Positions 27,612-59,918 of a stretch of 64,000 bases of DNA are shown in pieces. Each line of letters starts with the position of its first letter. Within the stretch, counting starts at the first letter, position 1. The position numbers and the translations under genes were made by a program. A model generated the notes under the pieces. The model saw only the letters and a program-made list of their open reading frames with translations, had not been told where the DNA came from and did not search any database. This DNA comes from Cerasicoccus maritimus. Its GTDB lineage: Bacteria; Verrucomicrobiota; Verrucomicrobiia; Opitutales; Cerasicoccaceae. The stretch is from assembly GCA_031296935.1 (NCBI GenBank), contig JAVDPD010000019.1, positions 31,958-95,957 on the forward strand. Reading direction: 5' to 3'.

Positions 27612-27653
27612 GCAACGTGCCGTTGCATCCATAGATTGGCGCATTGCGCCAAT
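27612..27653. repeat. Two-hairpin 42-bp unit, copy 1
   Basis: Immediately after the sulfatase stop comes GCAACG-TGC-CGTTGC (27612-27626), then eight bases, then ATTGGCGC-ATT-GCGCCAAT (27635-27653). A 42-bp unit of the same design lies at 59877-59918, differing only in a few spacer or loop bases. Both hairpins have three-base loops. See the finding on the hairpin family. Confidence 0.85.
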
Positions 27654-27745
27654 AGCCAATCAAGGACTCTGAGATAGCGCGGATCGTCTCGCCCCGCAGT
27701 TTCATCCGCTCGCCTGTGTTGTTTTAGTCAGATGAGAATCGGTAT

Positions 27746-27846
27746 ACAGGCGAGACGCCCGTGCTACGCCAATACACACCGCCTCCACGATACATCGCTA
27801 AGCCATTTGCCCACCGGGCAAAACTATGGGTGCAGCGGCACGCTGC
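27746..27846. repeat. Cluster of three small hairpins downstream of mutM
   Basis: Three three-base-loop palindromes lie at 27746-27762 (ACAGGCG-AGA-CGCCCGT, one G-T pair), 27806-27822 (TTTGCCC-ACC-GGGCAAA) and 27832-27846 (GCAGCG-GCA-CGCTGC). The last overlaps the final codons of mutM. It belongs to a 20-bp sequence repeated exactly at 58321-58340. The rest of the 212-bp space between the sulfatase and mutM shows no gene. Confidence 0.8.
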
Positions 27847-28666
27847 CGCTGGGTTGGCAGAGGGGGCAGAAGCAGCTGGTGCGGCCGCCGACTGCTTTGC
27901 GTTGCAAAGCTTCGCCGTCTTTGGGGCAATGGCCGCCATCCCTCCAGCGGTGCCAAAAGAGCCAGCTCTCGGGGATGTTGACATTCATGTCGGGCGGCAG
28001 TTCGCCACCAGCGCCGGCAATGCAACGCATGGCGTCGGCTGCGACTTCGCGAACATTGCGATACAAAGTAATGCGCTGCGCGGCGGTGAGTTGGCCGCAT
28101 TTGGTTTCGGGGAAAACCTGCGCGCGCCAGAGTATCTCGTCGGCCATCCAGTTACCGATGCCGGGGAAGCGTTCCTGCATCAGCAGCACGGCTTTGATCG
28201 GCGACTTTGCACGCCGGGCGAGAAAGGCGTCCATGACTTCCTGCGTGAAGGCGTCGGATAAAACCGGCGGCGGAAAATCGGTCCACCATTGGGGCGGCTC
28301 TTTGCCAATGTGCAGCTTGAGTAGGCCAAATTGACGCGGGTCGCGAAAGATGAGCGTGCGCTTCGCCTGCCGCAAAACGAAGTGGTCCCACTTGGCCCGC
28401 TCGACTTGCTTTGCATCGCAAAGTAACTTCCCTGTCATACCAAGATGCAGGCCCAACCAGCGTCCGCCAGAGAACTCAAAAAGCATTTGCTTGGCCTGCG
28501 CGTAGGAGGCCTTGAGCGTGGCGCCGGTCAAGGCGTTGATGACCACTGTGGCGGCTGACTCGCGGTAGATGCGCGCCTTGGGGTTGGCTTCGATGGCTTG
28601 AACTTTGCCGCCGATACCGGGGTCCCATTGCTGGCGGAAATATTCGACTTCGGCGAGTTCAGGCAT
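27824..28666 (-). CDS. mutM: Formamidopyrimidine-DNA glycosylase family protein
   Basis: A 280-residue Fpg/Nei glycosylase for oxidised bases. It begins MPELAEVEYF with the catalytic Pro2 and Glu3, and has the helix-two-turn-helix NWMADEILWRAQVFPE, written here in one run of sixteen. The C-terminal zinc finger is odd: HCPKDG replaces the usual CxxCG, so the second Cys is Asp, while FCPLCQ is intact. An extra Cys lies two residues before FCPLCQ. Three small hairpins fall inside the gene (27832-27846, 27894-27910 and 28409-28423) and change or encode zinc-finger loop and C-terminal residues. Activity is likely but finger integrity is uncertain. Nei-like specificity is also possible. Confidence 0.9.
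   Translation of the reverse strand: MPELAEVEYFRQQWDPGIGGKVQAIEANPKARIYRESAATVVINALTGATLKASYAQAKQMLFEFSGGRWLGLHLGMTGKLLCDAKQVERAKWDHFVLRQAKRTLIFRDPRQFGLLKLHIGKEPPQWWTDFPPPVLSDAFTQEVMDAFLARRAKSPIKAVLLMQERFPGIGNWMADEILWRAQVFPETKCGQLTAAQRITLYRNVREVAADAMRCIAGAGGELPPDMNVNIPESWLFWHRWRDGGHCPKDGEALQRKAVGGRTSCFCPLCQPSGSVPLHP
27894..27910. repeat. Small hairpin inside the mutM zinc-finger coding region
   Basis: GCTTTGC-GTT-GCAAAGC is a perfect 7-bp-arm palindrome with a three-base loop. Read on the coding strand it supplies the in-frame residues ALQRKA of the zinc-finger loop. It shares its core with 28409-28423, 28763-28777 and 44553-44567. Confidence 0.8.
28409..28423. repeat. Small hairpin inside mutM, central region
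   Basis: CTTTGC-ATC-GCAAAG is a perfect 6-bp-arm palindrome, read in frame as part of LLCDAKQV. The same 15 bases recur exactly at 28763-28777, just past the next gene's stop. Confidence 0.8.
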
Positions 28667-28679
28667 GGCGTGAGAAAGG

Positions 28680-28759
28680 CAAAATTATAAATTCTAAATG
28701 CAAAATAATGTGGCTCAACTTCGCATCTTTTGAATTTTGCATTTATAATTTTGAATTGT
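28680..28759. repeat. AT-rich inverted repeat upstream of mutM
   Basis: Imperfect inverted copies of CAAAATTATAAAT-type and AAATGCAAAAT-type words face each other across about 25 bases. Translated it gives NAKFKI-like strings, a known look of dispersed repeats. It could act as a bidirectional hairpin between the convergent ends or upstream leaders of mutM and SulP. Confidence 0.7.
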
Positions 28760-28762
28760 AAG

Positions 28763-28777
28763 CTTTGCATCGCAAAG
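28763..28777. repeat. Small hairpin after the SulP stop codon
   Basis: CTTTGC-ATC-GCAAAG lies 4 bases beyond the SulP stop codon, identical to the palindrome at 28409-28423 inside mutM. It is a member of the three-base-loop hairpin family. Confidence 0.8.
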
Positions 28778-28781
28778 TTGA

Positions 28782-30788
28782 TTATTCCTCTCCGACTTTC
28801 TTGCGCTTGTTGGGGTTGACGTAGATTTTGATGTCGACCTCTTGGTCGCCGAGAATCTCCTGGGCGCGGCCGAGGGCGAGTGCGGTGGAGAGGGTGGCGT
28901 TGGCGTGGTTGTCAGGGAAGACGTTCTTCGGGTTGAGCGTGTCCATGATGCCGGAGTTGGTCAGCGTGCGCATGCATTCCTCGCGGCATTCGCTAAGGAT
29001 GAGGATGCGGTCGCGCTCATTCATGTAGCCCACTAGCTCCTCAATCGCCATGGCGGAGGTGGCGTCGAGGTGGCGCGCGTTGCGCATTTTAAGGACGACT
29101 ATTTTCAGGTTTTCGCGCTCGGAGACGCGGCGCATTTGCTCGTCAAAAATTTCGGCAGCGCCAAAGAAGAGGTCGCCTTCCACGTGGACAATTGAGATCT
29201 CGGCATTCTGTGGCTTGTCCTTGTCTTCCATTTGCGAGAGGCCGCCTTCGTCGTCGAAGCCAAACTCCGAAAGCTCGGGCGTGGCGGCCTTACGCAGAAA
29301 GAGGATAATGCTCAGCGCGGCTCCGAGATAGATCGCAGTATCGAGGGGGATCAGCAGGCCTGCGATGCACGTCGTGTAAAAGACGGCGGCGTCACTGCGG
29401 GTGGCCTTGGTGACGATCTTGATCGCGTGGCGGTTGAAGAGACCGATGCCGATGAAGATGACGAGCACCGCTAGCACGGACTGCGGGATATACATGATCA
29501 GCGGTCCGAGGATGAAGGCGCCGGCGGCGACCATGAGGCCGTTCATTAGCGAGGCAAGCGGCGTGCGCCCGCCACTGCTCCACGAGAGCTGGGAACGCGT
29601 CAGCGAGCCCGAGGCTGGCATGCCGCCAAAGAAACCGGAGGCAATATTGGCTGCGCCGATGGAAAACATTTCCTGGTTGCCATCGAGTTTTTCGCCCGAG
29701 CGCGCGGCGAGGCTTTTGCCGATGCTGGTGCCTTCGAGGACGCAGAGCAGGGCGAGGGCGAGGGCCACGTTGGCGAGCTGCGCGATGGAGTCGAAATCGA
29801 TGCTGGGCATCGTGATGGGCCAATTGCTGGCGTCGATGGGCTGGAGCCAGCGGATGTCGGAGCCTGACCATATACGCTCTTCCTCGGGGCGCTGTTGGTC
29901 GGCCATGACTTCGAGCGGAAATTCGTCTGCACGCGGGGGAATGGACTCGGGCGAGAGAATTTCCTCCTTCATCTCTTCCTCGACGATTGCGCTCTGCATG
30001 GTCATCAGCTGGGCATGGCGCTCGAAGCTGAATTCCGGGTTGAGCGTCTTGGTCGCGAGCACGGCGATGCCGGATACGACCAGCATCGTGATGGCGACGT
30101 TGGGCAGCGTCTTGAATTTCTTTTGCAGCGCGACGAACAGGATGGCCGTTATGGCGCTGAGCGTGGCGGACTCCAGATGGAGCTCGGGCAGGTGCTGGCA
30201 GGTGACGATCAGCTTTTCAAAAAACGTCGTGGCGCGCTCTTTTTCATCGGGGGTAAAAGTGATGCCGAGCGCGTTCTTGGCCTGGCCGACGATGATCAGC
30301 AGCGAGGCCGCCGTGATGTAGCCGGTGACGACCGTGCGCGAAATGTATTGGATCACGTTGGCCACACGCAGGTAGGCGCCGACGACCATGAAGCCGCCAA
30401 TCATCACGAGGAGCAGGGGCAGCATCGCCGCGCGCGCCTCTTCGTTGATGATCGAGAGCGCCGCCATCGCCGAAGCAAAAGTGACAGAGGTGGCGTTCGT
30501 TGGCCCCAACGTGATGAAGCGCGAGCCTGCGAAAAACGACGCAACAATCGCCGCCACCGCCGAGCCGTAAATTCCGTATTGAATCGGTAGCCCGGCGATC
30601 AGCGCGTAGGCCATGCCTTGCGGAAAGGCCAGCAGCGCGACATTGAGCCCGGCGCGAAAGTCGCAGCCCGCCGTCTTCGCGTTGTATCCGCGCACGTGCT
30701 TGCGAAGCGGGAAAAAGTCCAGCTGGTTAGCTTGCTTCAGCCAGCGTAGCGTAGATTTCAGGCGTTCGGCGTTCAAGCCTTTACCCAA
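28782..30788 (-). CDS. SulP-family anion transporter with STAS domain
   Basis: A 668-residue inner-membrane transporter for sulfate, bicarbonate or a related anion. The membrane domain begins near residue 45 (AGLNVALLAFPQGMAYALIAGLP, read in two parts) with the SulP signature and continues through about 12 helices. A long polar insertion of about 90 residues rich in Glu lies near 265-350. The cytoplasmic STAS domain is at the C-terminus (ISIVHVEGDLFFGAAEIF, MRNARHLDATSAMAIEEL). No ATG is available upstream: an in-frame stop lies two codons before the TTG at 30788, so a TTG start there, or four codons on, must be used. Substrate is not determined. Confidence 0.9.
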   Translation of the reverse strand: MGKGLNAERLKSTLRWLKQANQLDFFPLRKHVRGYNAKTAGCDFRAGLNVALLAFPQGMAYALIAGLPIQYGIYGSAVAAIVASFFAGSRFITLGPTNATSVTFASAMAALSIINEEARAAMLPLLLVMIGGFMVVGAYLRVANVIQYISRTVVTGYITAASLLIIVGQAKNALGITFTPDEKERATTFFEKLIVTCQHLPELHLESATLSAITAILFVALQKKFKTLPNVAITMLVVSGIAVLATKTLNPEFSFERHAQLMTMQSAIVEEEMKEEILSPESIPPRADEFPLEVMADQQRPEEERIWSGSDIRWLQPIDASNWPITMPSIDFDSIAQLANVALALALLCVLEGTSIGKSLAARSGEKLDGNQEMFSIGAANIASGFFGGMPASGSLTRSQLSWSSGGRTPLASLMNGLMVAAGAFILGPLIMYIPQSVLAVLVIFIGIGLFNRHAIKIVTKATRSDAAVFYTTCIAGLLIPLDTAIYLGAALSIILFLRKAATPELSEFGFDDEGGLSQMEDKDKPQNAEISIVHVEGDLFFGAAEIFDEQMRRVSERENLKIVVLKMRNARHLDATSAMAIEELVGYMNERDRILILSECREECMRTLTNSGIMDTLNPKNVFPDNHANATLSTALALGRAQEILGDQEVDIKIYVNPNKRKKVGEE

Positions 30789-30827
30789 AGGCTAAATCAA
30801 TCGAGTGAAAAGTCTTTTTTGAAACTA

Positions 30828-30937
30828 GTTTCGAGTGGCGAGTTGGGGGTTGCGAGTTGGGAGTGGGGTTGCTTTCTTCGCGGAATGGGAGTTAAGCGTT
30901 TCTTAACTCGCAACTCGCCCCTCATAACTCGAAACTG
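30828..30937. repeat. Inverted repeat of CGAGTTG-type words
   Basis: Copies of TTTCGAGT/GGCGAGTTG/TTGCGAGTTG on the left face their complements (AACTCGCAACTCGCCCC, AACTCGAAACT) on the right, making a long imperfect hairpin between the divergent SulP and TPR genes. This is another member of the large dispersed-repeat class seen at 4463, 35017 and 49985. Confidence 0.75.
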
Positions 30938-30942
30938 TTTTC

Positions 30943-31254
30943 ATGAATAACCGCTCGGACATTTTTAAAGAAAAGGTCGCCAAAGACCCGAACAACAGCC
31001 TCTTCCGCTACAGCCTCGGACAGGCGCTCTTTGACGAGAAGCAATACGCCGATGCGCAGGAGCACTTGCAGTTCTGTGCGGACAGTCGCGAGGACTGGAT
31101 GATGCCGCGCATTTTGCTGGGCAAGGCCTTGCTCGAAGCTGGCGATACCGAGGCCGCAAAGCCGGTCCTGGCTGACGCGCTACAGTTGGCTGTCGACCAA
31201 AATCACGACGACCCCGCCGCCGAGCTGCGCGAGATCCTGGCTGACTTGGCCTAG
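30943..31254 (+). CDS. Small TPR protein
   Basis: A 103-residue helical protein made of about three tetratricopeptide helix pairs (NNSLFRYSLGQALFDEKQYADA, DWMMPRILLGKALLEAGDTEAA). There is no signal peptide, so it is cytoplasmic. It ends 10 bp before the GT1 glycosyltransferase gene and probably shares its transcript. TPR units usually bind partner proteins; the partner is not known. Confidence is high that it is a real gene, lower on role. Confidence 0.85.
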   Translation: MNNRSDIFKEKVAKDPNNSLFRYSLGQALFDEKQYADAQEHLQFCADSREDWMMPRILLGKALLEAGDTEAAKPVLADALQLAVDQNHDDPAAELREILADLA

Positions 31255-31264
31255 GAGAATTTCG

Positions 31265-32515
31265 ATGCGCGTCGTCATCACCAGTCATGGCTCCACGGGG
31301 GACATGGTGCCTATGGTGGCCCTGAGCCGTGCGTTGCTCGATGCCGGGCATGACGTGGTGTTTACGGCGCCGGATTTGTTTCAAGATTTGATCGAAGGCG
31401 CGGGCGTGCCGTTTTACGAGGTCCCGCCCAAGTGGTCCACGGAAGACGGACGCACGGCGATGAAAGCGCTGGCGCGCATCAAGTCGCCGATGAATCAGCT
31501 CAAGCGAATTTACGAATTTGGCAGCGGGCATTACCAAGAGTATTTCGAGAAACTGGAGGCGCTGACCGAGGGCGCGGACCTGCTGGTGTCGTCGTATTTA
31601 TACCCGTGCTTGCAGGCCTTGGCCGAGCGACAGGGCGCGAAGTTTGCCGTGGCGACCTTTGCGCACAATGCCGTGCCGACGGATGATCAGTCGCCGTTGC
31701 CGTTGCTGGATTTTCCGTTTTTGCCGGGTGCCTTGGGAGTTGCGTGGCGTCGGCTTTGGTGGTGGATCGCGGACACCGCTGTTGTGCCAACGCTCAATGG
31801 CGTGGTGGGCGCTGACCTGCGCGCACGCGGTTATTCGACGAAGTGGAGTTTCTTCCGGCGGCCGGCGCCGCTGGCGTTGGTGACGGTGTCGGAAAAGCTG
31901 TTTGCACCGGGCAAGGGCCGGGTGGACCCGCGCTTTGTTTACACCGGCTACTGGCGCTACCAAACGCCGGTCAACGACGCCTTCGAAGCGGAGGTTGACG
32001 CGTTTTGCGCGGGCGAGCGCGTGCCGGTGTTGAACTTTGGCAGCGTGACGTGGGACAGCGCGACGGATGAGTTTACCGAGCTGCTGGAGGTCTGGCCACG
32101 TGGCAAAAAACTCATCGTGCAAAGCGGCTGGGCGGGCTTTGCCCAACTGCCGGGTGCCGAGCGGAAGGACATTCTTTTAATCGGCCATGCGAACCACGAC
32201 CGCCTCTTTGCGCGGGCCTCAGTGGTGATTCATCATGGCGGCGCCGGGACGACGGCTTCCGTGCTGCATGCCGGTGTGCCGCAAATCGTGATCCCCAGCA
32301 TTGCGGACCAATTCTTTTGGGCGCGGCAATGCGAGAAGCTCGGCGTGGCGATCATTGGTCGACAGAAAACTTGGTCCCGTGATTTGCCCCAATGGGTGGC
32401 GACGGTGGAGGCCGGCGCTGGCTACCGTGCATCGGCGGTGTCGGTGGCGGAGACGTTGGGCCAGGAAGACGGCCCCGCGAAGGCGGTACGCATGCTGGAA
32501 GATTACGTGCGCTGA
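31265..32515 (+). CDS. GT1 family glycosyltransferase
   Basis: A 416-residue GT-B fold transferase similar to UDP-glycosyltransferases acting on lipids, sterols or secondary metabolites. The N-terminal acceptor domain opens RVVITSHGSTGDMVPMVALSRALLDAGHDVVF (the GSxGDxxP start is typical), and the donor-binding signature is VVIHHGGAGTTASVLHAGVPQIVIPSIADQF, read in two parts. No membrane helix is present. It follows the TPR gene by 10 bp. Acceptor and donor cannot be told from the sequence. Confidence 0.92.
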   Translation: MRVVITSHGSTGDMVPMVALSRALLDAGHDVVFTAPDLFQDLIEGAGVPFYEVPPKWSTEDGRTAMKALARIKSPMNQLKRIYEFGSGHYQEYFEKLEALTEGADLLVSSYLYPCLQALAERQGAKFAVATFAHNAVPTDDQSPLPLLDFPFLPGALGVAWRRLWWWIADTAVVPTLNGVVGADLRARGYSTKWSFFRRPAPLALVTVSEKLFAPGKGRVDPRFVYTGYWRYQTPVNDAFEAEVDAFCAGERVPVLNFGSVTWDSATDEFTELLEVWPRGKKLIVQSGWAGFAQLPGAERKDILLIGHANHDRLFARASVVIHHGGAGTTASVLHAGVPQIVIPSIADQFFWARQCEKLGVAIIGRQKTWSRDLPQWVATVEAGAGYRASAVSVAETLGQEDGPAKAVRMLEDYVR

Positions 32516-32626
32516 TAGCGCGTGGGCGTCTGATACACATCAAAGGACGCTTCTATCATTAGCATCTCTTGGTGGATTGATAATTATTGCTTGCGCTCCA
32601 GTGCTTTACCTTCGATAACAGCGCGC

Positions 32627-32935
32627 GTGCCTCAACCCACCCCTACAAAAGAAGCGCTCGTTAACCGCTATTGGCGAGCAAATGTCTTAATTACGCTTGG
32701 CCTCCTGTTTGTCTGGGCGTTCGTCAGCTTTGGCTGCGGAATCTTATTCGCCGATAAACTGGACGCTATCCATTTGTTTGGCACTGGCTACCCGCTCGGG
32801 TTTTGGTTCGCTCAGCAGGGCTCGATTATTGTGTTTGTCTTCCTGATTCTGTTCTACGCGATTTTCATGAATGCACTCGACCGCAAGCACAAGCGTGAGA
32901 TGGACGAGTTTAAGGCGAAGGGAGGTGAGGCATGA
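32627..32935 (+). CDS. Na+/solute symporter small subunit (DUF4212)
   Basis: A 102-residue protein with two membrane helices (VLITLGLLFVWAFVSFGCGI and SIIVFVFLILFYAIFMNALD), the DUF4212 pattern found before VC_2705-like sodium/solute symporters. The GTG at 32627 is preferred to a TTG 12 codons upstream because it gives the compact family N-terminus (PQPTPTKEALVNRYWRAN). Its stop overlaps the large-subunit start by four bases, so they are coupled. Confidence 0.87.
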   Translation: MPQPTPTKEALVNRYWRANVLITLGLLFVWAFVSFGCGILFADKLDAIHLFGTGYPLGFWFAQQGSIIVFVFLILFYAIFMNALDRKHKREMDEFKAKGGEA

Positions 32936-34833: not shown

Positions 34834-34835
34834 TG

Positions 34836-34858
34836 CCGTTTCGGCGGAGCCGAAACGG
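34836..34858. repeat. 10-bp-arm hairpin right after the symporter stop
   Basis: CCGTTTCGGC-GGA-GCCGAAACGG is a perfect hairpin with a three-base loop, two bases after the stop codon. It lacks a T-run and precedes the real terminator at 34890. It is the largest-armed member of the small hairpin family. Confidence 0.8.
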
Positions 34859-34889
34859 AGATTAAAGGAAAAAGTTTAAAGATTAAAGT

Positions 34890-34926
34890 AGTGGCGAATT
34901 CCTTGAATGGAGTTCGCCACTTTTTT
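34890..34926 (+). terminator. Intrinsic terminator of the symporter operon
   Basis: AGTGGCGAA and TTCGCCACT pair as a 9-bp stem around 14 bases and are followed by six T residues. Position 57 bp after the symporter stop and the T-run fit a rho-independent terminator on the plus strand. Confidence 0.85.
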
Positions 34927-34950
34927 CGCGGAGGTAGTGCATCAAAGTTG

Positions 34951-34969
34951 AAGCGGCATTTTGCCGCTT
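34951..34969. repeat. Small hairpin AAGCGGCA-TTT-TGCCGCTT
   Basis: A perfect 8-bp-arm palindrome with a three-base loop in the space between the symporter terminator and the next inverted repeat. It belongs to the small hairpin family. Confidence 0.8.
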
Positions 34970-35016
34970 TGCCTTGTCAGGAGAGCGTTAGGGGCAGGTG
35001 AGAATGAACCGGATTT

Positions 35017-35092
35017 TTTGAACAGAAGGTAACAAAGAGAGCAAAGCCACTTACGGCTATCCTTTGCTAACTCTGCTGCATTCTGTTCAAAG
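35017..35092. repeat. Inverted repeat of the GAACAGAAGG family
   Basis: TTTGAACAGAAGGTAACAAA-type sequence on the left faces an imperfect complement ending CATTCTGTTCAAAG on the right. It is a shorter relative of the outer arms at 4463-4654. It ends 8 bp from the stop of the DUF2721 gene. Confidence 0.75.
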
Positions 35093-35099
35093 AGTTGTC

Positions 35100-35510
35100 T
35101 CAGCCACGCTTCTTGGCGCGGCCTTCAGGGCGGCAGTTCTCGAGGACAACTTTCAACGCGTTGCCAGCGAGCATGACTTCGCGCAGGCAGACGGTGAGTG
35201 ACGCAAACAGCAGCACTACGCTCAGCCCGAAGAGCACTTCGCCGAGCATTTGAAGATTGGTATGAATCGCGAGGATCGACGCCAGGCAACTGAGCAACGA
35301 GAGGATGCCCAGCGCCTGCATCCACTTGATGAGGACAAGGCGTATTTCGAGGTTGTCGATCTGCCGCTGCATCGACTCGTCGTCGTGCTCCATGAGCTGC
35401 CCGGCGAGGTCGCGGACGATGCGCGCGAGCGCGAGGAAGCGGTTCGTGTAAGCCAGCATCAGCAGTGATACTGCAGGGAATAGAATGGCTGGCGTCTTTA
35501 CGTCGATCAT
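35100..35510 (-). CDS. DUF2721 family membrane protein
   Basis: A 136-residue inner-membrane protein. The N-terminal helix leads into LLMLAYTNRFLALARIVRDL, a pattern I associate with DUF2721. A cytoplasmic helix with DDESMQRQIDNLEIRLVLIK follows, then two more helices (LGILSLLSCLASILAIHT, VLFGLSVVLLFASLTVCLREV). A basic tail ends the protein. The function is unknown. The gene stands alone on the minus strand with a repeat behind it. Confidence 0.82.
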   Translation of the reverse strand: MIDVKTPAILFPAVSLLMLAYTNRFLALARIVRDLAGQLMEHDDESMQRQIDNLEIRLVLIKWMQALGILSLLSCLASILAIHTNLQMLGEVLFGLSVVLLFASLTVCLREVMLAGNALKVVLENCRPEGRAKKRG

Positions 35511-44552: not shown

Positions 44553-44567
44553 CTTTGCGCGGCAAAG
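44553..44567. repeat. Small hairpin 19 bp before the ydbH start
   Basis: CTTTGC-GCG-GCAAAG, arms identical to the hairpins at 28409 and 28763 but with a different loop. It lies in the leader of the ydbH-ynbE-ydbL operon. The remaining 225 bp back to the lipoprotein gene shows no other feature. Confidence 0.75.
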
Positions 44568-47827: not shown

Positions 47828-48518
47828 GCGTAGCGTGATTTTTGAACTCAGGTAGGGACGGTTGCCCTCAACCGTCCGCCACTGTGCATACAGAAGATCG
47901 TTTGTCCAACTGAATGAAACGCGGACGGTTGAGGGCAACCGTCCCTACCATTTGCAAACAGCGATCAAAAACACCGCCAAGCTGAAGATACGGCGCGAGC
48001 CAGCCTCCGGTTGCGGGGTGTCCCGGTGGGTTGGTAATTTGCCTGTGATGGCGTTGCCCAGTGGTTTCGGCATGCGTAGCGTGATCTTTGAACTCCGGTA
48101 GGGACGGTTGCCCTCAACCGTCCGGTTTCATTGGGTAACCGTCCGGTTTCATTGGGTAGCCCTCAATCGTCCGCCACTGTGCCTAGAGAAGATCGTTTGT
48201 TCAACTGATTGAAACGCGGACGGTTGAGGGCAACCGTCCCTACCATCTTCAAACAGTGATCAAAAACACCGCCAAGCTGAAGATGCGGCGCGAGCCAGCC
48301 TCCGGTTGCGGGGGTTCCCGGTGGGTTGGTCGTTTGCCGGTGATGGCGTTGCCCAGTGGTTTCGGCATGCGTAGCGTGATCTTTGAACTCAGGTAGGGAC
48401 GGTTGCCCTCAACCGTCCGGTTTCATTGGGTTGCCCTCAACCGCCCGCCACTGTGCATACAGAAGATCGTTTGTCCAACTGAATGAAACGCGGACGGTTG
48501 AGGGCAACCGTCCCTACC
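47753..48518. repeat. Triplicated 5' end of the phytoene synthase gene plus inverted repeat
   Basis: The first 25 codons of the gene (47753-47827) recur at 47999-48073 and 48294-48368. Each copy is followed, going right, by an inverted-repeat element with GGTAGGGACGGTTGCC arms (47851-47949, 48097-48244, 48392-48518). Copies 2 and 3 also share a 53-base spacer to their left. Extra GTTTCATTGGGTA words are inserted in copies 2 and 3. Copies are diverged and only the first leads into an intact gene. The 803-bp space up to the glutaredoxin gene is almost entirely this repeat. Confidence 0.9.
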
Positions 48519-48552
48519 TGACGCGAGCGGAGGCAACAACGTACGGCCCAAA

Positions 48553-48587: not shown

Positions 48588-48606
48588 ATTTTCGCAGTGC
48601 GAAAAT
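48588..48606. repeat. Small hairpin ATTTTCGC-AGT-GCGAAAAT
   Basis: A perfect 8-bp-arm palindrome with a three-base loop between the glutaredoxin stop and its terminator. The loop AGT is also used at 59908-59910. It is a member of the small hairpin family. Confidence 0.8.
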
Positions 48607-48630
48607 CTAACGGTCCAGCCGGAGGCTGGC

Positions 48631-51855: not shown

Positions 51856-51888
51856 AATTATGTGTGATTTAAGGTAAAGGGTATGTGG

Positions 51889-54681
51889 TTAAATTAAGTT
51901 CAGCGCCTTCAGAGCGTCGCGGTCGCGTGGGGATACGCTACCAAAATCACCTGCTGGCACGAGCTCAGAAACCCAACGCCAGGAGCGTGGGCAACGTTCG
52001 CCATCGGCATGTGCGGCTGTGAGTTCAACTTCGCCATCGGTCTTCGTGGCCAAGCTGACTTGAGAAACGATAAATAGTTCCGGTAAATCTGCTTCATACT
52101 TCTTAAGAAGCTTCAGGAGCGGATCTTCTTCCGTCGCCGTGATGGAAACTTTGGCCTCAAGGTTGGCCCCAATGACCTTCTCTTCACGCAGCTTTTCGAG
52201 GGGCAGGTTGACCTGCTCTTCGCGGAAGTTGATGACGGCGTCGATGTCGGCCGCGACTTGGGCGTCGAACGGGAAGTCGCTCGCCTTGGGCCAGGGCTGT
52301 AGGTGAATGCTGTCGTCGGCCAGCTCTTCGCCGCTGACGTGGAAGCTCCAGGCTTCGTCGGCGGTGAAGGTGAGCACCGGCGCAATGACGCGCACCAACG
52401 CACGGAAAATCAGGTAGATCGCGGTCTGCGAGGACGCGCGCTCGGTCCACTCCGGCGCAAAGGTGTAAAGACGGTCTTTGAGGATCGCATGATACACGCG
52501 CGAGAGGGTGACGCCCACGAAACGGTCGATTTCCTGATAGGCGCGGTGGAACTCGTAGTTGTCCATCGCCGTCGTGACGCGCTCCACGAAACCAGCGGTC
52601 TGCATGAGCGCCCACTGGTCGATCGGAGTCAGGTCGGCAGGCTTCACGGCGTCGGTTTCGTAATCGAAGCCGGCGAGGTTGCCGAGCTGATACATCAGCG
52701 TGTTGCGAACGCCGCGATAGACGTTCGAGACGAGCTTGAAGTGGTTTTCCGACAAACGGATGTCGCCACGGTAGTCCTGTGAAGCGACCCACAGGCGCAT
52801 GATGTCCGCGCCAAACTTTTTCACCCAGCCGTCGGAGCTCATCGCGCCCTTGGACTTGGAGATCTTCTCGCCCTTTTCGTCGACTATGAAGCCGTGGGTG
52901 ACGACGTTCTTATACGGTGCCGCGCCATCGGCGATGACCCCCGTCCAGATCGAGCTCTGGAACCAGCCACGGTGCTGGTCGCTGCCTTCTAAATAGAGGT
53001 CGGCGGGCCAGGAAAGCTTTTCGTTCTGCTGAAGCACGGCGCGGTGTGAGCAACCGGAGTCGATCCACACATCGAGCGTATCGCCGCCCTTGGTCAGCGT
53101 CTTGCCAGCAAATTCAGCGGGCAGCTCAATGCCATCGAGCAACTCTGCGGCAGACTGCTCAAACCAGATGTTGGTCCCGTTTTCAGCCACCTTGTCGGCG
53201 AGGGCCTTGATGACGTCGGCGTCGATCAGCGGATTCTTGTCATCGTCATAGAAAACAGGGATCGGCACGCCCCAGGAGCGTTGACGGCTGATGCACCAGT
53301 CCGGGCGGGTTTCGACCGCGCCGCGGATGCGCTTGATGCCAGCTTCGGGCGTCCACTTGACCTGCTCGATTTGCTCCAGGACCTTTTCGCGCATGTGATG
53401 CGCGTCGAGCGAGACGAACCATTGGTCCATCGCCCGGAAGACAACCGGCGTCTTCGAACGCCAGCAATGCGGGTAAGAGTGCTCGTGCTTCTTGACCGCC
53501 ATGAGTGCGCCTTTCTCCGTAAGGATACTCAGGACGGCGCTGTTGGCCGGGCACTTGCCCTTTGTTTCGAGGACGGTCACGCCGACGAGTTCAGCAGGAA
53601 CCTGGCCATCATCGACATAGCAGCCATTATCGTCGAGCGGACAGTAAATTTCGAGGCCGTATTTGAGGCCGGTCAGGTAGTCTTCCAGACCGTGACCGGG
53701 GGCGGTGTGCACGCAGCCGGTGCCGGACTCGGTGGTGACATAGTCGGCGAGGACGACCGGGCTGTTGCGATCGATGAACGGATGCTTGGGCTGGAGGCTC
53801 TCCAGCTTGCGGCCTAGGTGCTTTTCGCCCAGCGTCGCGCCTTCGAGTTCGCAGCTCTGGATAAAGTTTTCCGCAAGCTGGTCGACGACGATGTAGGTCG
53901 CGCCGTTGTGCTTCACCTCGACGTATTCGAGGTCCGGGTGCACGGCTACCGCGAGGTTGGCAGGCAGCGTCCAGGGAGTCGTCGTCCAGATGACGATGTA
54001 AAGTGGGCCGTCGATGTGGAGGAACTGATGGCCGGGGATTTCGAAGCGAACCCAGATCGACGGACTGATGTGGTCGTGGTATTCGACTTCGGCTTCGGCT
54101 AGTGCCGTCTCGCAGGGGATCGACCAGTAAACCGGCTTCTTGCTCCGGTAAACCAAACCCTGCTCGACGAACGACGCAAAGGTGCGCAGGATAGTCGCCT
54201 CGTAGGTCGGCTTCATGGTCTTGTATTCCTCGGCCCAATCGGCGAGGACACCAAGGCGCTGGAATTGACCGCGCTGCTTCTCGATGAACGATGCGGAGAA
54301 ATCGGCACAGGCTTCACGCAGCTGAGCGGGGGAGAGGTCTTCGCCCTTTTCGCGCAGCTCTTTGGTGACCTTGAATTCGATCGGCAGGCCGTGGCAGTCC
54401 CAGCCAGGCACGTAGGGCGCGCGGAAGCCCTGCATGGACTTGTAGCGCAAAATGGAATCCTTAAGAATCTTGTTCAGCGCGGTGCCAATGTGCACATCAC
54501 CATTGGTGAACGGCGGGCCGTCGTGCAGCACGAAGGAAGGGCCCTGGGCGTTCTGCTCCTGAATTTTTTCATAGAGCCCCATTTTCCGCCAATGCTCGAG
54601 GCGGGAGGGTTCTCGTTTGACCAAATTCCCACGCATGGGAAACTTGGTGTCTGGGAGGTTTAAGGTGTCTTTGAGTTCCAT
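51889..54681 (-). CDS. ileS: Isoleucyl-tRNA synthetase
   Basis: A 930-residue class I synthetase that loads isoleucine on tRNA. The HIGH motif is in GPPFTNGDVHIGTALNK (near 60) and the KMSKS equivalent is EKISKSKGAM. CP1 editing and anticodon-binding domains fill the usual length. The C-terminal zinc knuckle looks lost: ERCPRSWRW and SPRDRDAL stand where CxxC pairs are expected. It is the first gene of the ileS-dksA-like-lspA operon, 33 bp ahead of the next. Confidence 0.97.
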   Translation of the reverse strand: MELKDTLNLPDTKFPMRGNLVKREPSRLEHWRKMGLYEKIQEQNAQGPSFVLHDGPPFTNGDVHIGTALNKILKDSILRYKSMQGFRAPYVPGWDCHGLPIEFKVTKELREKGEDLSPAQLREACADFSASFIEKQRGQFQRLGVLADWAEEYKTMKPTYEATILRTFASFVEQGLVYRSKKPVYWSIPCETALAEAEVEYHDHISPSIWVRFEIPGHQFLHIDGPLYIVIWTTTPWTLPANLAVAVHPDLEYVEVKHNGATYIVVDQLAENFIQSCELEGATLGEKHLGRKLESLQPKHPFIDRNSPVVLADYVTTESGTGCVHTAPGHGLEDYLTGLKYGLEIYCPLDDNGCYVDDGQVPAELVGVTVLETKGKCPANSAVLSILTEKGALMAVKKHEHSYPHCWRSKTPVVFRAMDQWFVSLDAHHMREKVLEQIEQVKWTPEAGIKRIRGAVETRPDWCISRQRSWGVPIPVFYDDDKNPLIDADVIKALADKVAENGTNIWFEQSAAELLDGIELPAEFAGKTLTKGGDTLDVWIDSGCSHRAVLQQNEKLSWPADLYLEGSDQHRGWFQSSIWTGVIADGAAPYKNVVTHGFIVDEKGEKISKSKGAMSSDGWVKKFGADIMRLWVASQDYRGDIRLSENHFKLVSNVYRGVRNTLMYQLGNLAGFDYETDAVKPADLTPIDQWALMQTAGFVERVTTAMDNYEFHRAYQEIDRFVGVTLSRVYHAILKDRLYTFAPEWTERASSQTAIYLIFRALVRVIAPVLTFTADEAWSFHVSGEELADDSIHLQPWPKASDFPFDAQVAADIDAVINFREEQVNLPLEKLREEKVIGANLEAKVSITATEEDPLLKLLKKYEADLPELFIVSQVSLATKTDGEVELTAAHADGERCPRSWRWVSELVPAGDFGSVSPRDRDALKALNLI

Positions 54682-55088
54682 TGCCTGACGGCTTGGTCGC
54701 CGATTGGCGCACTATTTGCAAAAGGCGGGGAGTCTGCTGCTTTCACACCGCAAGTCAAGGGTGGTTTTACCCATCGCCGCATTCCTGCATGGTCAGAGTT
54801 TGTGTAAATGGATTAATGGGTCAATCCTCTGCTTAATGTTGAATTCTATTCACTTATGTTTGGTGGGGTTTGATTACTGTTTTCTGCTTCGGAAATTCAC
54901 CGTTGATGTGGAAAATTCTGAAAAATAGTGCTCGCATTAGTCGGGGTAATTAGTCACATCAATGGCTTTACCTAAAGTGGCGTTAAATCGGCATTTTCTT
55001 AATCATATTCTTGTTAAATTGTAAAATCATCTTGTCACTGAGGGCTGATTTATTCAACAATTAGGTATTATAACCTAGATGGGCTGCG
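54682..55088. other. 407-bp AT-rich intergenic region, no feature recognised
   Basis: The space between the ileS start and the small 55089 gene is visibly more AT-rich than the flanks. It must hold the ileS promoter on the minus strand. A 74-codon open frame at 54704-54928 has no family or signal support. I see no terminator, RNA gene or clear repeat. Confidence 0.4.
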
Positions 55089-55388
55089 ATGAATCGTTTA
55101 GTTGAGCAATGTAATTTATCTGAGTTCGAAGCAGATGTGTCCTTTTTGAAGAGGCTTTTGCTCGAACTATATGAGCGTACATCTTGTGAGGTGCATGATG
55201 ATGTGCTGAGGTTCAGTTTTGAGCTCGAGCAGAAGTATGATTACGTCAAGGATTGTATGTTGTTTTTACTGATCATTGGCGGAACGTTACCGACTCAAAC
55301 GAGGATTTATGATTTCGAAGGGACGGATTCTATCGAAAAATTCATTAAGAATTTGTATTTTACGCATTGTATTGAAGGCGTTGCATAG
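55089..55388 (+). CDS. Small AT-rich hypothetical protein
   Basis: A 99-residue, acidic, helix-rich protein (EFEADVSFLKRLLLELYERT, FELEQKYDYVKDCMLFLLII) with a hydrophobic middle segment and no signal. Codon use is much more AT-rich than in neighbouring genes, suggesting recent gain. I do not recognise the family. The gene is isolated between ileS and the pnp terminator. It might be real or a chance frame; the amino-acid composition argues mildly for real. Confidence 0.45.
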   Translation: MNRLVEQCNLSEFEADVSFLKRLLLELYERTSCEVHDDVLRFSFELEQKYDYVKDCMLFLLIIGGTLPTQTRIYDFEGTDSIEKFIKNLYFTHCIEGVA

Positions 55389-55521
55389 TGTTACGCCGCA
55401 GGGCCACATGGGTTTGGCGATATTAGATCGCAGCGGGAGCTAATAAAAATTTTCGGGCAAAGTGATGCGGTGTGCATGGTGTGCAGGTTACCATCATGAG
55501 TGTCGATTCTCTGCGTGTGTC

Positions 55522-55552
55522 AAAAAAACCGCGCCCTTACAGGACGCGGTTT
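55522..55552 (-). terminator. Intrinsic terminator of pnp
   Basis: On the minus strand AAACCGCG and CGCGGTTT pair around 11 bases and are followed by a T-run of seven, partly shared with the stem. It lies 27 bp past the pnp stop, a standard rho-independent arrangement. Confidence 0.9.
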
Positions 55553-55578
55553 GAAATGAATGAATTGAGAGCGGGCGC

Positions 55579-57894
55579 TTAGGCTTCGGAGGAAGCTTCT
55601 TCACGCTTGTCCCCGCCGGAGTCGCCATCGCGATCACGGCGCGGACCACGGCCACGACCACCATCGCGACCGCCACGACCGCCGTCACGGCCACGGCCAC
55701 GGCCACCGTCACGACCACCACGGCCACGATCACCACCTCCATCACGGCCTTTGGGCTCGTAAGGCTTGCCTTGGGCTTCGCAGAGGGCTGCGAGGCGGGA
55801 CAGGCGGACACGGCCCTTGTCGTCGATGCCAACGCACTTGACGAGGATTTCGTCGCCCAGCTTGCAAACGTCTTCGACCTTCTCCACGCGGAACTCTGCG
55901 AGTTCGGAAACGTGAACGAGGCCTTCCTTGCCCGGGAGGCATTCGACGAAGCAGCCAAACTCCTTAATCGCACGGACGATACCCTTGTAGGTCTTGCCCG
56001 GTTCGATTTCGGCGGTGACGAGTTCAATCTCGTTGATCGCACGCTGCATGGCGTCGCCATCGCTGGCGAAGATGAGCACGCGGCCGGAGTTGTCTTCGTT
56101 GATGTCGATCTGTGCGCCGGTGATTTCCACGATGCGCTTGATGTTCTTGCCGCCGGGGCCGATGAGGGCACCGATCTTTTCCGGGTCGATCTGGACCTGC
56201 TCGATGCGCGGTGCACAGGGCTTGAGCTCGGTGCTCGGCGCTTCGATGGAAGCGGTCATGATGTCGAGAATCTTGTCGCGGGCGATCTTGTTCTGGTAGA
56301 TAGCCTCCTTCGCGAGATCCAGCGGGATGCCCTTGATTTTAAGGTCGAGCTGGAAGCCGGTGATGCCTTCCTTGGTGCCGCAGATCTTGAAGTCCATGTC
56401 GCCGAAGTGGTCTTCTGCGCCGAGGATGTCGGTCAGGATGACGCTTTCGGTTATGTTGCCTTCTTCCGCGCCACGGGTCACAAGGCCCACGGAGATGCCG
56501 GCAACTGGAGCGCTGATCGGCACGCCCGCGTCCATGAGGGACAGGGTACCGCCGCAAACGGAAGCCATCGAGGTGGAGCCGTTGGACTCGAAAATATCGG
56601 AGACCAGACGGATTGAGTAAGGGAACTCATCTTCGCCGGGGAGCACTGCGAGGAGCGAACGCTCGGCAAGTGCGCCGTGGCCAATTTCGCGACGACCCGG
56701 GCCGGTGAAGCGACCGCATTCGCCAACCGAGAACGGCGGGAAGTTGTAGTGGAGGATGAAGCTCTTGCTCTTCACGCCGCCGGTGAGGGCGTCAAGTTCC
56801 TGCGAGTCCTTGCTGGTGCCGAGGGTCAGGGAAACGATGCCCTGGGTTTCACCACGCTGGAACAGCGAGGAGCCGTGCACGCGGGGAAGGACGTCGGTTT
56901 TGCAGGAGATCGGGCGCAGGTCATCCGGACCACGGCCATCCACGCGCTTCTTGTTCACTAGGATGTTTTCGCGATAGAGCTCTTCCTGGAGCACTTCGAA
57001 AGCCATGTTGATCTGCGGGCCGATCATGCCTTCCTCGACGAGGTTGGCTTCGGTCAGGGCAGCGGTGGCTTCGTCCTTCAGGGCGGAAACGGCGTTGCCG
57101 CGCTCGACCTTGGAGTCCTGGAATACGGCGGCCTGCATCTTTTCGCCCACCGTCTTGCGGCAGAGCTCGAGGACGTCGTCTTGAACCTTGATGAGGTCAA
57201 AGTCCTTCTTGGTCTTGCCAACCTTGGAAGCGAGTTCCTTCTGAGCGGCGATGAGCGGTTGGATGGCGTTTTGCGCAAACTCAAGGGCTTCGATGAAGCG
57301 AGATTCGGGGAGCTGGTCCGCCGAGCCTTCGATCATCATCATTTCCTTTTCGTTACCAACGTAGATGAGGTCGAGTGTGGACTCGAACATTTCTTCGTGG
57401 GTCGGGTTGACGACGAACTCGCCGTCGATCTCGCCCAGGCGGATGCAGCCGATCGGGCCGTGCCACGGAATGTCGGAGCACAAGCAGGCGGCGGATGCGG
57501 CGTTGACCATGAGGACGTCCGGGTCGTTGACCAAGTCGGTGCTCATGAGGATGCCGATGACCTGAACCTCAAAGAGGAAGCCCTTCGGGAAGAGCGGGCG
57601 CAGCGGGCGGTCGCAGAGACGCGAGGTGAGGATTTCCTTCTCGGAGGGGCGGCCTTCACGCTTGAAGTAGCCACCAGGGAAACGACCGGCAGCGGAGAAA
57701 CGCTCGCGGTAGTCCACAGTGAGTGGGAAGAAGTCCTGGTCTGGTGAGCGCAGGCTGGTAGCAGCGGTGGCGGAGACAAATACGGTGGTCTCGCCCTTGG
57801 TGATGGTAACAGCGCCGTTGGCCTGTTTTGCGATGGTGCCCGACGCAATAGTGATGTCGAGCGATTCGATGTATACGCTATGTTCTTGTTTCAT
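55579..57894 (-). CDS. pnp: Polyribonucleotide nucleotidyltransferase
   Basis: PNPase degrades RNA 3'-5' using phosphate and is part of RNA-turnover complexes. The 771 residues include two RNase PH domains ([20 protein letters not shown] in the first; [18 protein letters not shown] in the second), then KH ([17 protein letters not shown]) and S1 ([18 protein letters not shown]) domains. The C-terminal tail of about 60 residues is unusual: a Gly-Arg-Asp-rich run of RGG-like repeats, which may bind RNA or partners. It follows a small membrane protein and rpsO on the same strand, keeping the rpsO-pnp linkage seen in many bacteria. Confidence 0.97.
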
Positions 57895-57958
57895 TTATCT
57901 TTTTGGATGTGTCAGCGGGCGGATCGGACGCGGTCGCGGACATGTTTCTTTTTGGGTT

Positions 57959-58192
57959 TTATGATGAAATGGTTTTACGGAGAGTGGAGTAGTGGACGAG
58001 CCAGTAGAAGGCGGCGCCGATGATGCCGGAAATGAGCGTCATGAGTCCCCACAATGCGGGTGAGTCCAGAAAGAGCCCTTGGCGGTTCCGAAATACTTTG
58101 GCGTCAAAGAAAATATATAGCGCCAGCCAGACATGAAGCACGATGAGCAATAAGGGGAACAACAAAGTAATTAATTGCAGCCAATTGATCAT
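57959..58192 (-). CDS. Small two-helix membrane protein
   Basis: A 77-residue protein with two membrane helices (LITLLFPLLLIVLHVWLALYIFF in two parts, and LMTLISGIIGAAFYWLVHY). A short loop DAKVFRNRQGLFLD joins them. I do not know the family. It lies between rpsO and pnp on the same strand, 64 bp ahead of pnp and just after a terminator-like hairpin, so it could be transcribed with pnp. Confidence 0.7.
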   Translation of the reverse strand: MINWLQLITLLFPLLLIVLHVWLALYIFFDAKVFRNRQGLFLDSPALWGLMTLISGIIGAAFYWLVHYSTLRKTISS

Positions 58193-58213
58193 TGGGTGGG
58201 GCTAATTAAAAGA

Positions 58214-58246
58214 AATAGCGGGCGCGGCGTAACCGGGCCCGCTATT
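58214..58246 (-). terminator. Terminator-like hairpin after rpsO
   Basis: AATAGCGGGC and GCCCGCTATT form a perfect 10-bp stem around 13 bases; on the minus strand TTTCTTTT follows. It stands 94 bp past the rpsO stop and would limit read-through into the membrane-protein and pnp genes. Confidence 0.75.
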
Positions 58247-58300
58247 GCGGAATTTAAAAGAACTGTCGTTGCTTTAGAAGGCGTTGAGCCATGCTAAACT

Positions 58301-58339
58301 TTGGGCAATGCCCAACCGTTGGGTGCAGCGGCACGCTGC
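58301..58339. repeat. Two small hairpins directly after the rpsO stop
   Basis: TTGGGC-AAT-GCCCAA lies at 58301-58315 and GCAGCG-GCA-CGCTGC at 58325-58339, next to the rpsO stop at 58340-58342. The latter is inside a 20-bp sequence identical to 27828-27847, at the mutM stop. Both have three-base loops. Confidence 0.85.
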
Positions 58340-58612
58340 CTAGCGGCGTAGGCCGAGGCGCTGAATAATATTCTTATAGCGCTCGAGGTCGTTCTTGCGC
58401 AGGTAGTTGAGCAGCTTGCGGCGCTTGTTGGTCATTTGGATCAGACCGCGACGGGTGTGGAAGTCCTTGCGGTGGGTGCGCAAGTGCTCGGTGAGGTGGC
58501 TGATACGAGCAGACAGCAGAGCGATCTGGACCTCGGGCGAACCGGTGTCGCCGTCCTTGGTTTTGTATTCAGCGATGATCTTATCTTTATCGATTGCGGT
58601 GGAACTAGCCAT
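58340..58612 (-). CDS. rpsO: 30S ribosomal protein S15
   Basis: A 90-residue ribosomal protein that binds 16S rRNA and helps small-subunit assembly. [24 protein letters not shown] (in two parts), [19 protein letters not shown] and [17 protein letters not shown] cover the whole S15 family signature. It is the first gene of the rpsO-pnp group. S15 often controls its own translation through leader RNA; I see no obvious such fold upstream. Confidence 0.97.
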
Positions 58613-59129
58613 TGTATTGATTACTGTTTTTCACGAACGCCGGGACCCCGAAATTGCTCGGAATCGCATTTCCCGCGACGCGCCGGAAATGCCGTTAACA
58701 ACCCGTGCTAACGGGCTGGGCTCGAGGAAGCGAGACTACGGCAAGCAGACTGGCTTCTAACGCAAGGCGAGAGAAAATCAGCATTTTGCGCCGAAGTTCA
58801 AGCTTTTTGTGCGTTCGTTTGGGCAAAGTTTTAAACGGCTGAACGGAGAATGTGCTCCAATAAACTCTTTTCTTGAGGATTTTTCAGCTGTCTATGACGT
58901 ATTCGCCAATTAGCCGCAAATCGGCCCTGCTGTGGGCGTAATTTACACCCGTGAAATTACTGACAATTTGAGGGCAGGCTAGGGGGATGGCCCTGACGTC
59001 GCTGAAGTTTTACAAATCCTTCAGCAGGATAAAACTTTGTGTTTTGCTCAGGTTTTGATAAGGTTTTTTCCGTCGGAGCAGATGGAATAGCACCCATGCA
59101 TCATTCTCACAATTATACCAACGCAAACC
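58613..59129. other. 517-bp intergenic region with a competing-hairpin motif
   Basis: Most of this region shows no gene. At 59001-59037 two hairpins compete: GCTGAAG (59001-59007) with CTTCAGC (59019-59025), and AAGTTTTA (59005-59012) with TAAAACTT (59030-59037), the second strengthened by an inner ATCC/GGAT. They share bases, so only one can form at a time, about 100 bp upstream of the 59130 gene. This could be an attenuator or a chance fold. The region must also hold the rpsO promoter. Confidence 0.4.
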
Positions 59130-59807
59130 ATGAAAACCAAAAAACGCTACCTATCCGTTGACGAGCTGCTTTATCTGGCTCAAGCCCCCAAGTCGCTCAT
59201 TCTTGAAATTCTCAAAACCCCCTCAGCCCAACATCACCTGATTGAAATCGACGCCTTCACCGCTTGGGATAAGGAGCGGCAGCGCGATTACCTGGTGGCT
59301 AAGCATCGGCTCCAGGAAATCATTGCCGACGGCACGCGCTATGAGAACATGGAAGTCGACCTCTCGAACTTACAGCTCGAATCTTTACCTCCTGAAGTGC
59401 ATTTTGTTATTCGCCGCGCCAAGCGCTTCCGTTTGAATCTCTCAGGTAACCAGTTTAGGCAGTATTTTGAGATTCGTCGCGCTATTACGCGGGATTCGCA
59501 TGATCATGGCATTCCGTTTGATGCGATCAATCTCGATGGTAATCCGATTCAAGACCTGTCGTTAGAGATGATCGAGCGCGGCAAGATATCGGCGCACTAT
59601 CTGGAAGAATACTGGCTACGCCATTGGGCGAAGCCTTTCACTATCGCCGAAAAGGTGACGCGCACAATGGAACTCCAGCGCTTCACTGGTCAGGATGTGG
59701 TCAATGCCCTCAAGCTAATGCTCGATATGACGGGCGCCTCGCACGCTGCCACGGTTTATACAGATGATGACCGCAGTGACGATCTCCTTGAGGCAATCAG
59801 TGCGTAA
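59130..59807 (+). CDS. LRR-like protein of unknown function
   Basis: A 225-residue cytoplasmic protein. The middle part resembles leucine-rich repeats (MEVDLSNLQLESLPPEVHF, RFRLNLSGNQFRQYFE, FDAINLDGNPIQDLSLEM), flanked by helices. The spacing is irregular, so it is a short or degenerate LRR fold. The C-terminal helix-rich part ends in an acidic DDDRSDDLLEAISA. No signal peptide. It is the only gene between two repeats and has its own terminator. Role unknown; LRR segments usually bind proteins. Confidence 0.72.
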   Translation: MKTKKRYLSVDELLYLAQAPKSLILEILKTPSAQHHLIEIDAFTAWDKERQRDYLVAKHRLQEIIADGTRYENMEVDLSNLQLESLPPEVHFVIRRAKRFRLNLSGNQFRQYFEIRRAITRDSHDHGIPFDAINLDGNPIQDLSLEMIERGKISAHYLEEYWLRHWAKPFTIAEKVTRTMELQRFTGQDVVNALKLMLDMTGASHAATVYTDDDRSDDLLEAISA

Positions 59808-59846
59808 AAAACTTTCGCATAGCGCGAATAGCAGTGGTTAATGAGA

Positions 59847-59875
59847 AAGGGACGCTCGACGACGGGCGTCCTTTT
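59847..59875 (+). terminator. Intrinsic terminator of the LRR-like gene
   Basis: GGACGC and GCGTCC pair around ten bases and are followed by CTTTTC; the flanking AA/TT extend the stem through a G-T pair. It lies 40 bp after the stop codon. It sits directly before the small-hairpin unit. Confidence 0.8.
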
Positions 59876-59876
59876 C

Positions 59877-59918
59877 GCAACGTGCCGTTGCATCCTGAGA
59901 TTGGCGCAGTGCGCCAAT
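59877..59918. repeat. Two-hairpin 42-bp unit, copy 2
   Basis: GCAACG-TGC-CGTTGC (59877-59891), eight bases, then ATTGGCGC-AGT-GCGCCAAT (59900-59918): the same architecture and length as 27612-27653, with changes only in four spacer and loop bases. It lies between a terminator and the convergent stop of the next gene, 10 bp away. Confidence 0.85.

Follow-up and report, generated by a model that had tools for sequence, protein, structure and literature searches.

Why does a stretch of bacterial chromosome carry so many small hairpins with three-base loops, and do they belong together? The question was raised by 64,000 nucleotides of Cerasicoccus maritimus DNA (contig JAVDPD010000019.1, positions 31,958 to 95,957; hereafter the window), in which a sequence-only reading had picked out sixteen such hairpins as one pattern. 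Fifteen of the sixteen are indeed perfect, each with a three-base loop, and the one at 27746 requires a single G-T pair, as had been claimed. However, they do not fit one pattern: at least two families are present, and a single common hairpin family is ruled out by their differing loops, location and mode of variation. We consider it fairly likely that two systems are at work, one of them (family A, CTTTGC-N3-GCAAAG) a site in duplex DNA for a putative dimeric reader, and the other (family B, a 42-nt double hairpin) a gene-end element resembling repetitive extragenic palindromic (REP) sequences.

The genome that holds the window (G000; phylum Verrucomicrobiota) comprises 4.81 Mb in 66 contigs. 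Statistics for G000 were taken from a sample of the window plus 49 loci, 1,017,250 bases in all (~1.02 Mb), of which 2,500 bases in L035 (C2:140001-160000) read N. Open reading frames (ORFs) in the sample were simple longest-ORF calls, with a coding fraction of 0.89. The relatives compared were C. frondis (G001), C. arenae (G003) and a further Cerasicoccus (G002).

The excess of hairpins over dinucleotide shuffles is modest in the window and clear over the whole sample. Loop-3 hairpins with arms of at least 6 bp number 39 in the window, against a mean of 22.1 and a maximum of 32 in 20 shuffles, and with arms of at least 8 bp there are 7 versus 1.9; loop 4 is likewise enriched for long arms (8 versus 1.1 at 8 bp or more). 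Over the sample, with two shuffles per locus, the loop-3 counts are 60 versus 19.5 for arms of 8 and 301 versus 221 for arms of 6, and pairs of loop-3 hairpins 4-45 nt apart number 64, against 3, 4 and 3 in shuffles. The list of commonest arms splits this excess into unrelated families. Over half of the loop-3 hairpins of the window with arms of 6 bp or more are expected by chance, which is what favors reading all sites as chance palindromes or ordinary terminators. That reading is already refuted by the counts, and the spacer rule of family A and conservation within the genus also speak against it, so that we give it practically no credence.

Family A, a palindrome with constant arms

Family A occurs 169 times in the 4.81 Mb genome, i.e., once per 28 kb, with the logo WWR CTTTGC RWY GCAAAG YWW. 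In the sample, it is the commonest 6+6 palindrome among all arms and spacers of 0-20, and its spacing is strict: 51 copies have the 3-base spacer, versus 0 or 1 at each other spacer from 0 to 15, and the reversed arm order is found 0 or 1 times at every spacer. As a control, 59 permuted arms gave a mean of 0.12 copies and a maximum of 3. Copies with one mismatch are also in excess (39, whereas permuted arms averaged 3.1 and never exceeded 15). Over-representation of the half-site was rejected as an explanation, given that CTTTGC alone occurs 1088 times versus 1095 expected.

The 51 sites show 17 strand-merged loop forms and 51 different flanks. The base pair immediately outside the arms is R/Y (G..T 18, A..T 16, A..C 13, A..G 2 and G..C 2) and has a similar composition when the 42 sites within ORFs are read on the sense strand (A..T 14, A..C 12, G..T 12, A..G 2 and G..C 2). 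Since these combinations are mostly non-complementary, the outer pair does not appear to be selected for pairing, and together with the constant arms and varied loop it makes family A resemble a two-fold protein site rather than a selected hairpin. The earlier proposal that these sites act as hairpins in RNA or single-stranded DNA draws on the perfectly complementary arms and the three-base loop. We nevertheless regard it as improbable, because the arms are constant rather than covarying, the next pair lacks complementarity, on the sense strand included, and most sites lie within genes. On the sequence evidence, the best reading of family A is a site recognized in duplex DNA (WWRCTTTGCRWYGCAAAGYWW), not a gene-end hairpin.

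The sites are spread over contigs C1-C4 and many more. The earlier statement that the hairpins lie near stop codons does not hold for the CTTTGC sites as a family, as 42 of the 51 are located inside ORFs. There they occupy all three reading phases (22, 12 and 8 in phases 1, 2 and 0), and the peptides they encode therefore differ (TLxxKV, FAxQS and LCxAK, among others). Pfam scans covered 31 of the 34 host ORFs, among them those for MutM (2 sites), MutL, RecQ, a DEAD_2 helicase and a B-family DNA polymerase, along with many metabolic genes, a list that gives no more than a hint of a bias toward repair genes. The densities of families A and B per 20-kb bin show at most a weak negative relation (Spearman -0.24, p 0.10).

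Four copies in the window illustrate these properties. The mutM gene (27824..28666, minus strand; Fapy_DNA_glyco and H2TH domains by Pfam) hosts two, CTTTGC-GTT-GCAAAG at 27895..27909, which is intact without an indel in G001 and G002, and CTTTGC-ATC-GCAAAG at 28409..28423, where the arms are identical and the loop is different in each of the three species. An intergenic site at 28763..28777 is present in G001 and falls in a gap in G002. The fourth, CTTTGC-GCG-GCAAAG at 44553..44567, is followed after 19 nt by an ORF that matches nothing in Pfam, and the scan revealed no DNA-binding protein beside the site.

Conservation and turnover of family A

For a fair test of conservation, the stretches from the relatives were fetched by synteny, and expected values were derived from phase-matched windows. 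Some of the 79 query sites of G000 lay in stretches that had been retrieved because they surround known sites; this biases the query set and leaves the targets unaffected. Sixteen of the 79 aligned in G001, and 13 of them were intact versus 3.2 expected, while a 14th, displaced by the aligner, was intact as well. Six sites aligned in G002, of which three were intact versus 0.8 expected. The other four directions among these three genomes gave 14 of 16 intact (3.7 expected), 3 of 3 (0.4), 5 of 7 (0.8) and 5 of 6 (0.7). Across the six comparisons, identity was 0.76-1.00 in the arms, 0.50-0.89 in the loop and 0.78-0.84 in the flank; in five of the six, the arms were more conserved than the flank, and in five of the six the loop was less so. 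A separate set of 21 homology-fetched alignments contained 12 intact sites versus 3.0 expected. Two site-bearing stretches, L029:10000-18000 and L040:500-2680, are 93% and 95% identical to C. frondis, versus 72-88% in most other site regions, possibly through recent interspecies exchange.

The presence or absence of sites in relatives had been put forward as a check, and in the syntenic relatives the missing family A sites proved to be mostly lost by substitution. Among distinct losses in the syntenic comparisons, six were substitutions at an aligned site and two were indels, both of them intergenic (L040:9027 in G001 and window position 28763 in G002); a third indel flag, at 28763 in G001, was an aligner artefact and the site is intact. 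Both mutM sites are intact in G000, G001 and G002, whereas mutM of C. arenae has neither, without an indel there, and has a different family A site of its own. Some BLAST alignments to C. arenae show small gaps at lost sites, and the claim that losses occur without indels therefore rests on G000-G002 and the mutM alignment. An inserted mobile micro-palindrome was rejected as the nature of family A, given the six substitutions versus two intergenic indels, as was template-switch repair of imperfect palindromes as its source, which by reasoning would yield any arm sequence. Family A sites would instead arise in place via point mutation and then be kept.

Where orthologous stretches were picked around the relatives' own sites, 21 of 22 sites were intact from G000 to G001 and 10 of 21 from G000 to G003, numbers that this choice biases upward and that we do not take as the principal evidence. 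In a Fe-ADH/LuxE-LuxC ORF pair and in a MacB-type gene, the spacing of three sites apiece is exactly the same in G000 as in C. arenae; these stretches too were picked around family A sites and are illustrative.

Several results weigh against a conserved genome-wide address. The six directed comparisons reuse loci both ways and are not independent. From G000 to G002, arm identity (0.764) is below that of the flank (0.801), one site being deleted. In the homology-fetched set, C. arenae retains none of five sites, and the identity of the arms (84.5%) differs only marginally from that of the flank (79.0%) across the full 21 alignments (p 0.04). Finally, the sites cluster, with seven gaps of <700 bp on contigs C2-C4 versus 1.4 expected, unlike an evenly spaced address.

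The motif is bound to a lineage. Compared with 169 copies in G000, there are 176, 166 and 47 in three other Cerasicoccus genomes (0-1 for the reversed-pattern control). Elsewhere in the bacterial family, G006 has 46 copies and G004 eight, the remaining four genomes searched have 0-1, and class-wide (385 genomes) there are 0-4 copies outside this group. Separately, two small genomes (0.8-0.9 Mb) of the order, G050 and G033, have 11 and 5 copies, with a control count of 0.

The chief rival for family A is a drive through natural transformation, in which competent cells would prefer site-bearing DNA and recombination would push copies of a DNA uptake sequence into any tolerant place, including genes. 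In-place substitution, presence in coding DNA, conservation, and the over-abundance of copies, both exact (51 versus 0.12) and with one mismatch (39 versus 3.1), all fit such a drive; the sites in MutM (2), MutL, RecQ, the DEAD_2 helicase and the B-family polymerase recall the genome-maintenance bias of uptake sequences; and identities of 93% and 95% to G001, against mostly 72-88%, are what recent exchange would give. Published uptake sequences also lie partly within ORFs (65% and 35% in two species; PMC1939737), but those described there are not palindromes, and family A is. In addition, family A sites cluster, and their repair-gene bias is no more than a hint. We think this explanation rather unlikely.

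We return to the recognition site. The sequence, spacing and conservation of family A are observed, and from them we infer that a putative two-fold symmetric (dimeric) protein would contact both arms and little of the middle. The sites may thus form a genome-wide address in Cerasicoccus, placed in genes as much as between them, for which a chromosome-organizing or other genome-wide DNA-binding role would be the most likely use, and a label for DNA uptake the second.

Family B, a double hairpin at gene ends

Family B is a 42-nt unit composed of a 6-3-6 hairpin (hairpin 1; consensus SCARCV-TSC-BGYTGS), an 8-nt linker (AYCSRTRG) and an 8-3-8 hairpin (hairpin 2; ATTnnnnC-AWT-GnnnnAAT). The hairpins listed earlier at 27612 and 27635, 27806 and 27832, 58301 and 58325, 59877 and 59900, and 48588 are all copies of this unit. 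A 42-bp unit had been said to recur at 27612 and 59877 and a 20-bp unit at 27828 and 58321, and both do, the former with few differences between copies and the latter exactly. The five copies in the window are situated at 27612..27653 (plus strand), right after the TAG of a sulfatase ORF (26295-27611); at 27805..27846 (minus strand), where the TAG of the linker serves as the mutM stop codon; at 48588..48629 (minus strand); at 58300..58339 (minus strand), a weaker copy of 35.7 bits that immediately follows the stop of the ribosomal S15 ORF (58340-58612); and at 59877..59918 (plus strand), where the linker has TGA instead of TAG. A covariance model, with 150 candidates scored per genome, identified at least 153 copies in one Cerasicoccus genome, 92, 72 and 19 in three others, the 19 being in C. 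arenae, and no copy in 32 further genomes.

Proximity to stop codons, which failed for the CTTTGC sites, was borne out for these double hairpins. Twenty of 31 copies start within 45 nt of the end of a same-strand ORF; six of them start exactly at the stop (distance 0) and five supply the stop via the linker TAG. By comparison, four of the 31 are at an opposite-strand stop. G002 lacks the element at two loci, mutM and a gene at L059:13912, but retains the neighboring genes, and in G000 it is the TAG of the element that terminates the gene. From such comparisons of sequence, family B looks like an insertion settling at gene ends; its gene-end position and its absence in a relative are observed, and insertion as its origin we infer.

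The arms of family B vary together. Across 15 pairs (8-19 included) in 23 distinct rows, pairing holds in 99.1% of cells, and there are 52 double-change cells versus 15.6 when shuffled; the rows had been preselected for pairing, and row L226 was removed before the 24-row alignment A1. More informative are two couplings that were not selected for and are independent evidence: position 17 of the linker matches position 4 of the stem in 63 of 67 copies, and position 8 of the loop matches position 19 of the linker in 64 of 67, each with all four combinations, in a loose set of 67 copies that may include a few false ones. They suggest that the tail folds back on hairpin 1, through a loop-tail pair and a triple (T*A-T or C*G-C), or else follows a guide-like rule. 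A rule of that type is reported for single-strand transposases, with the guide 5' to the palindrome (PMC8266576).

Other features count against insertion and structural selection in family B. The two G002 loci hold other short sequence rather than being cleanly empty, and whether the element was gained or lost can be polarized at mutM only, where C. arenae also lacks it. Stem pairing, in rows that had been chosen in part for pairing, shows that many arm sequences occur and does not count as independent evidence. Even so, the earlier idea of selection for structure or a spreading palindrome survives for family B (paired arm changes, coupled tail positions, gene-end place and absence in a relative) and fails for family A (constant arm letters, variable loops, mostly intragenic sites and losses mostly by substitution).

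Family B would accordingly be described as a REP-like 42-nt element, mostly in sense orientation at gene ends, that may act at the mRNA 3' end through end protection or slowed termination. In none of the 25 copies listed is hairpin 2 followed within 10 nt by the five-T run of an intrinsic terminator; one has TTTT from position 5 and one TTTTT from position 14. As a small repeat with covarying loop and tail, family B bears on how hairpin repeats are recognized and how repeats at stop codons are tolerated; the matches listed in a literature search on REP and ribosome rescue were off target.

Could family B be a classical REP mobilized by a REP-associated tyrosine transposase (RAYT; Y1 transposase)? 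It is a short palindromic repeat with many copies, mostly outside genes, near stop codons and paired, with NTAG before hairpin 2, and Y1_Tnp genes exist in the genus. However, the GTAG conserved at the hairpin foot of REPs is a minority form here, the first base of NTAG being A in 40, G in 19, T in 7 and C in 1 of 67 copies. Nor do Y1 counts track family B counts across genomes: C. arenae has its 19 copies and no Y1 match, and G006 and G004 have Y1 and no family B. None of the three Y1 matches examined among the 13 of the genus (L280, L281 and L068) is accompanied by family B, and the two intact loci, in G001 and G002, are flanked on both sides by their own CGGGGGTT repeat. The better Y1 copy of G000 appears frameshifted, with its halves in two overlapping ORFs. 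We therefore see mobilization by RAYT as possible but doubtful.

The genus also contains other repeats. The intact RAYT-type Y1 genes at L280 (G002) and L281 (G001) have CGGGGGTT-N2/3-AACCCCCG repeats on both sides, probably a cognate REP of the genus. In the window, the imperfect hairpin at 27746..27762 stands next to GTAG on the minus strand, and in its G001 counterpart two inverted GTAG-CACAGGCG-TCT-CGCCTGTG copies face each other, as REP pairs do. Positions 47850-48520 comprise three similar segments of ~250-300 bp, each with facing GTAGGGACGGTTGCCCTCAACCGTCC repeats (a GTAG-type REP array), and the core of this repeat has 17 copies in the sample. A longer G000 repeat contains CTTTGCCTTGAATCCAAAGCTTAATCGGGCAGACT, and its 20-mers occur 22-23 times in the sample. 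Two further hairpins belong to neither family A nor family B: a 10-bp hairpin at 34836-34858, immediately after the stop of an SSF-family ORF, and AGCGGCA-N3-TGCCGCT at 34951-34969, which is also found at L053:173.

Comparison with known systems

Taking both families together, our fullest picture is one to which we give slightly less than an even chance. Cerasicoccus would possess a 21-bp palindromic address of its own, which occurs in three frames, originates by point mutation, stays fixed while the gene around it drifts, turns over at its center and is used by a putative dimeric reader for chromosome organization or selective uptake. Alongside this address there would be a double hairpin, mobile and with a tail that folds back, that rewrites gene ends and is able to bring its own stop codon. 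The sequence-only reading had known no named family that fits, and this stands with respect to Rfam 15, which at the gathering score matched neither hairpin family and returned only two tRNAs in the window. For family B, the nearest named kind is REP repeats as a class. By title, nothing relevant to the family A motif was among the papers listed, and no report was found on palindromes in Cerasicoccus, neither of which is proof of absence from print.

Like REPs and bacterial interspersed mosaic elements (BIMEs), family B is short, repeated, hairpin-forming and located at gene ends. It differs in being mostly in one orientation to the gene, in having ATAG more often than GTAG, in its fixed 42-nt two-hairpin build, and in that no cognate RAYT was found for it among the 3 of 13 Y1 matches examined. 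The GTAG superfamily is known in the verrucomicrobial O. terrae (PMC3733652), and a REP <16 nt away from a stop codon reportedly reduces translation (PMC12306157).

Family A shares with DNA uptake sequences and uptake signal sequences (DUS/USS) a dispersed distribution, in genes and between them, over-representation in coding and non-coding DNA, retention in place, changes by substitution and an excess of near matches. Uptake sequences are far denser, however, and family A is a palindrome. A highly iterated palindrome (HIP), made and kept by a DNA methyltransferase with linked repair, is another relative by analogy, as family A is likewise a palindrome iterated across the coding DNA of one lineage and changed by substitution. 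HIP1 is more frequent than family A. It is also only 8 bp long and tied to methyltransferases, and the 12 fixed letters in 15 bp of family A, at one per 28 kb, are unlike the 5-8 bp HIP motifs discussed in PMC4390886; we find an origin of this kind very improbable.

The remaining parallel is with matS, the MatP site of the enterobacterial Ter macrodomain, which is described in PMC6907758 as GTGACRNYGTCAC, a palindrome with a three-base RNY middle and 23 sites, ~one per 35 kb. Family A is likewise a palindrome, with a middle of RWY and one copy per 28 kb, but its arms are CTTTGC/GCAAAG and not those of GTGACRNYGTCAC. Unlike matS, it is not confined to one chromosome region, being found on C1-C4 and many more contigs, which are unordered. 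Dispersed sites that persist in genes against codon drift are few, and uptake sequences, matS, Chi and HIP1 each revealed a genome-scale process; family A adds a clear, countable and lineage-bound case, and we know of no other in the phylum Verrucomicrobiota.

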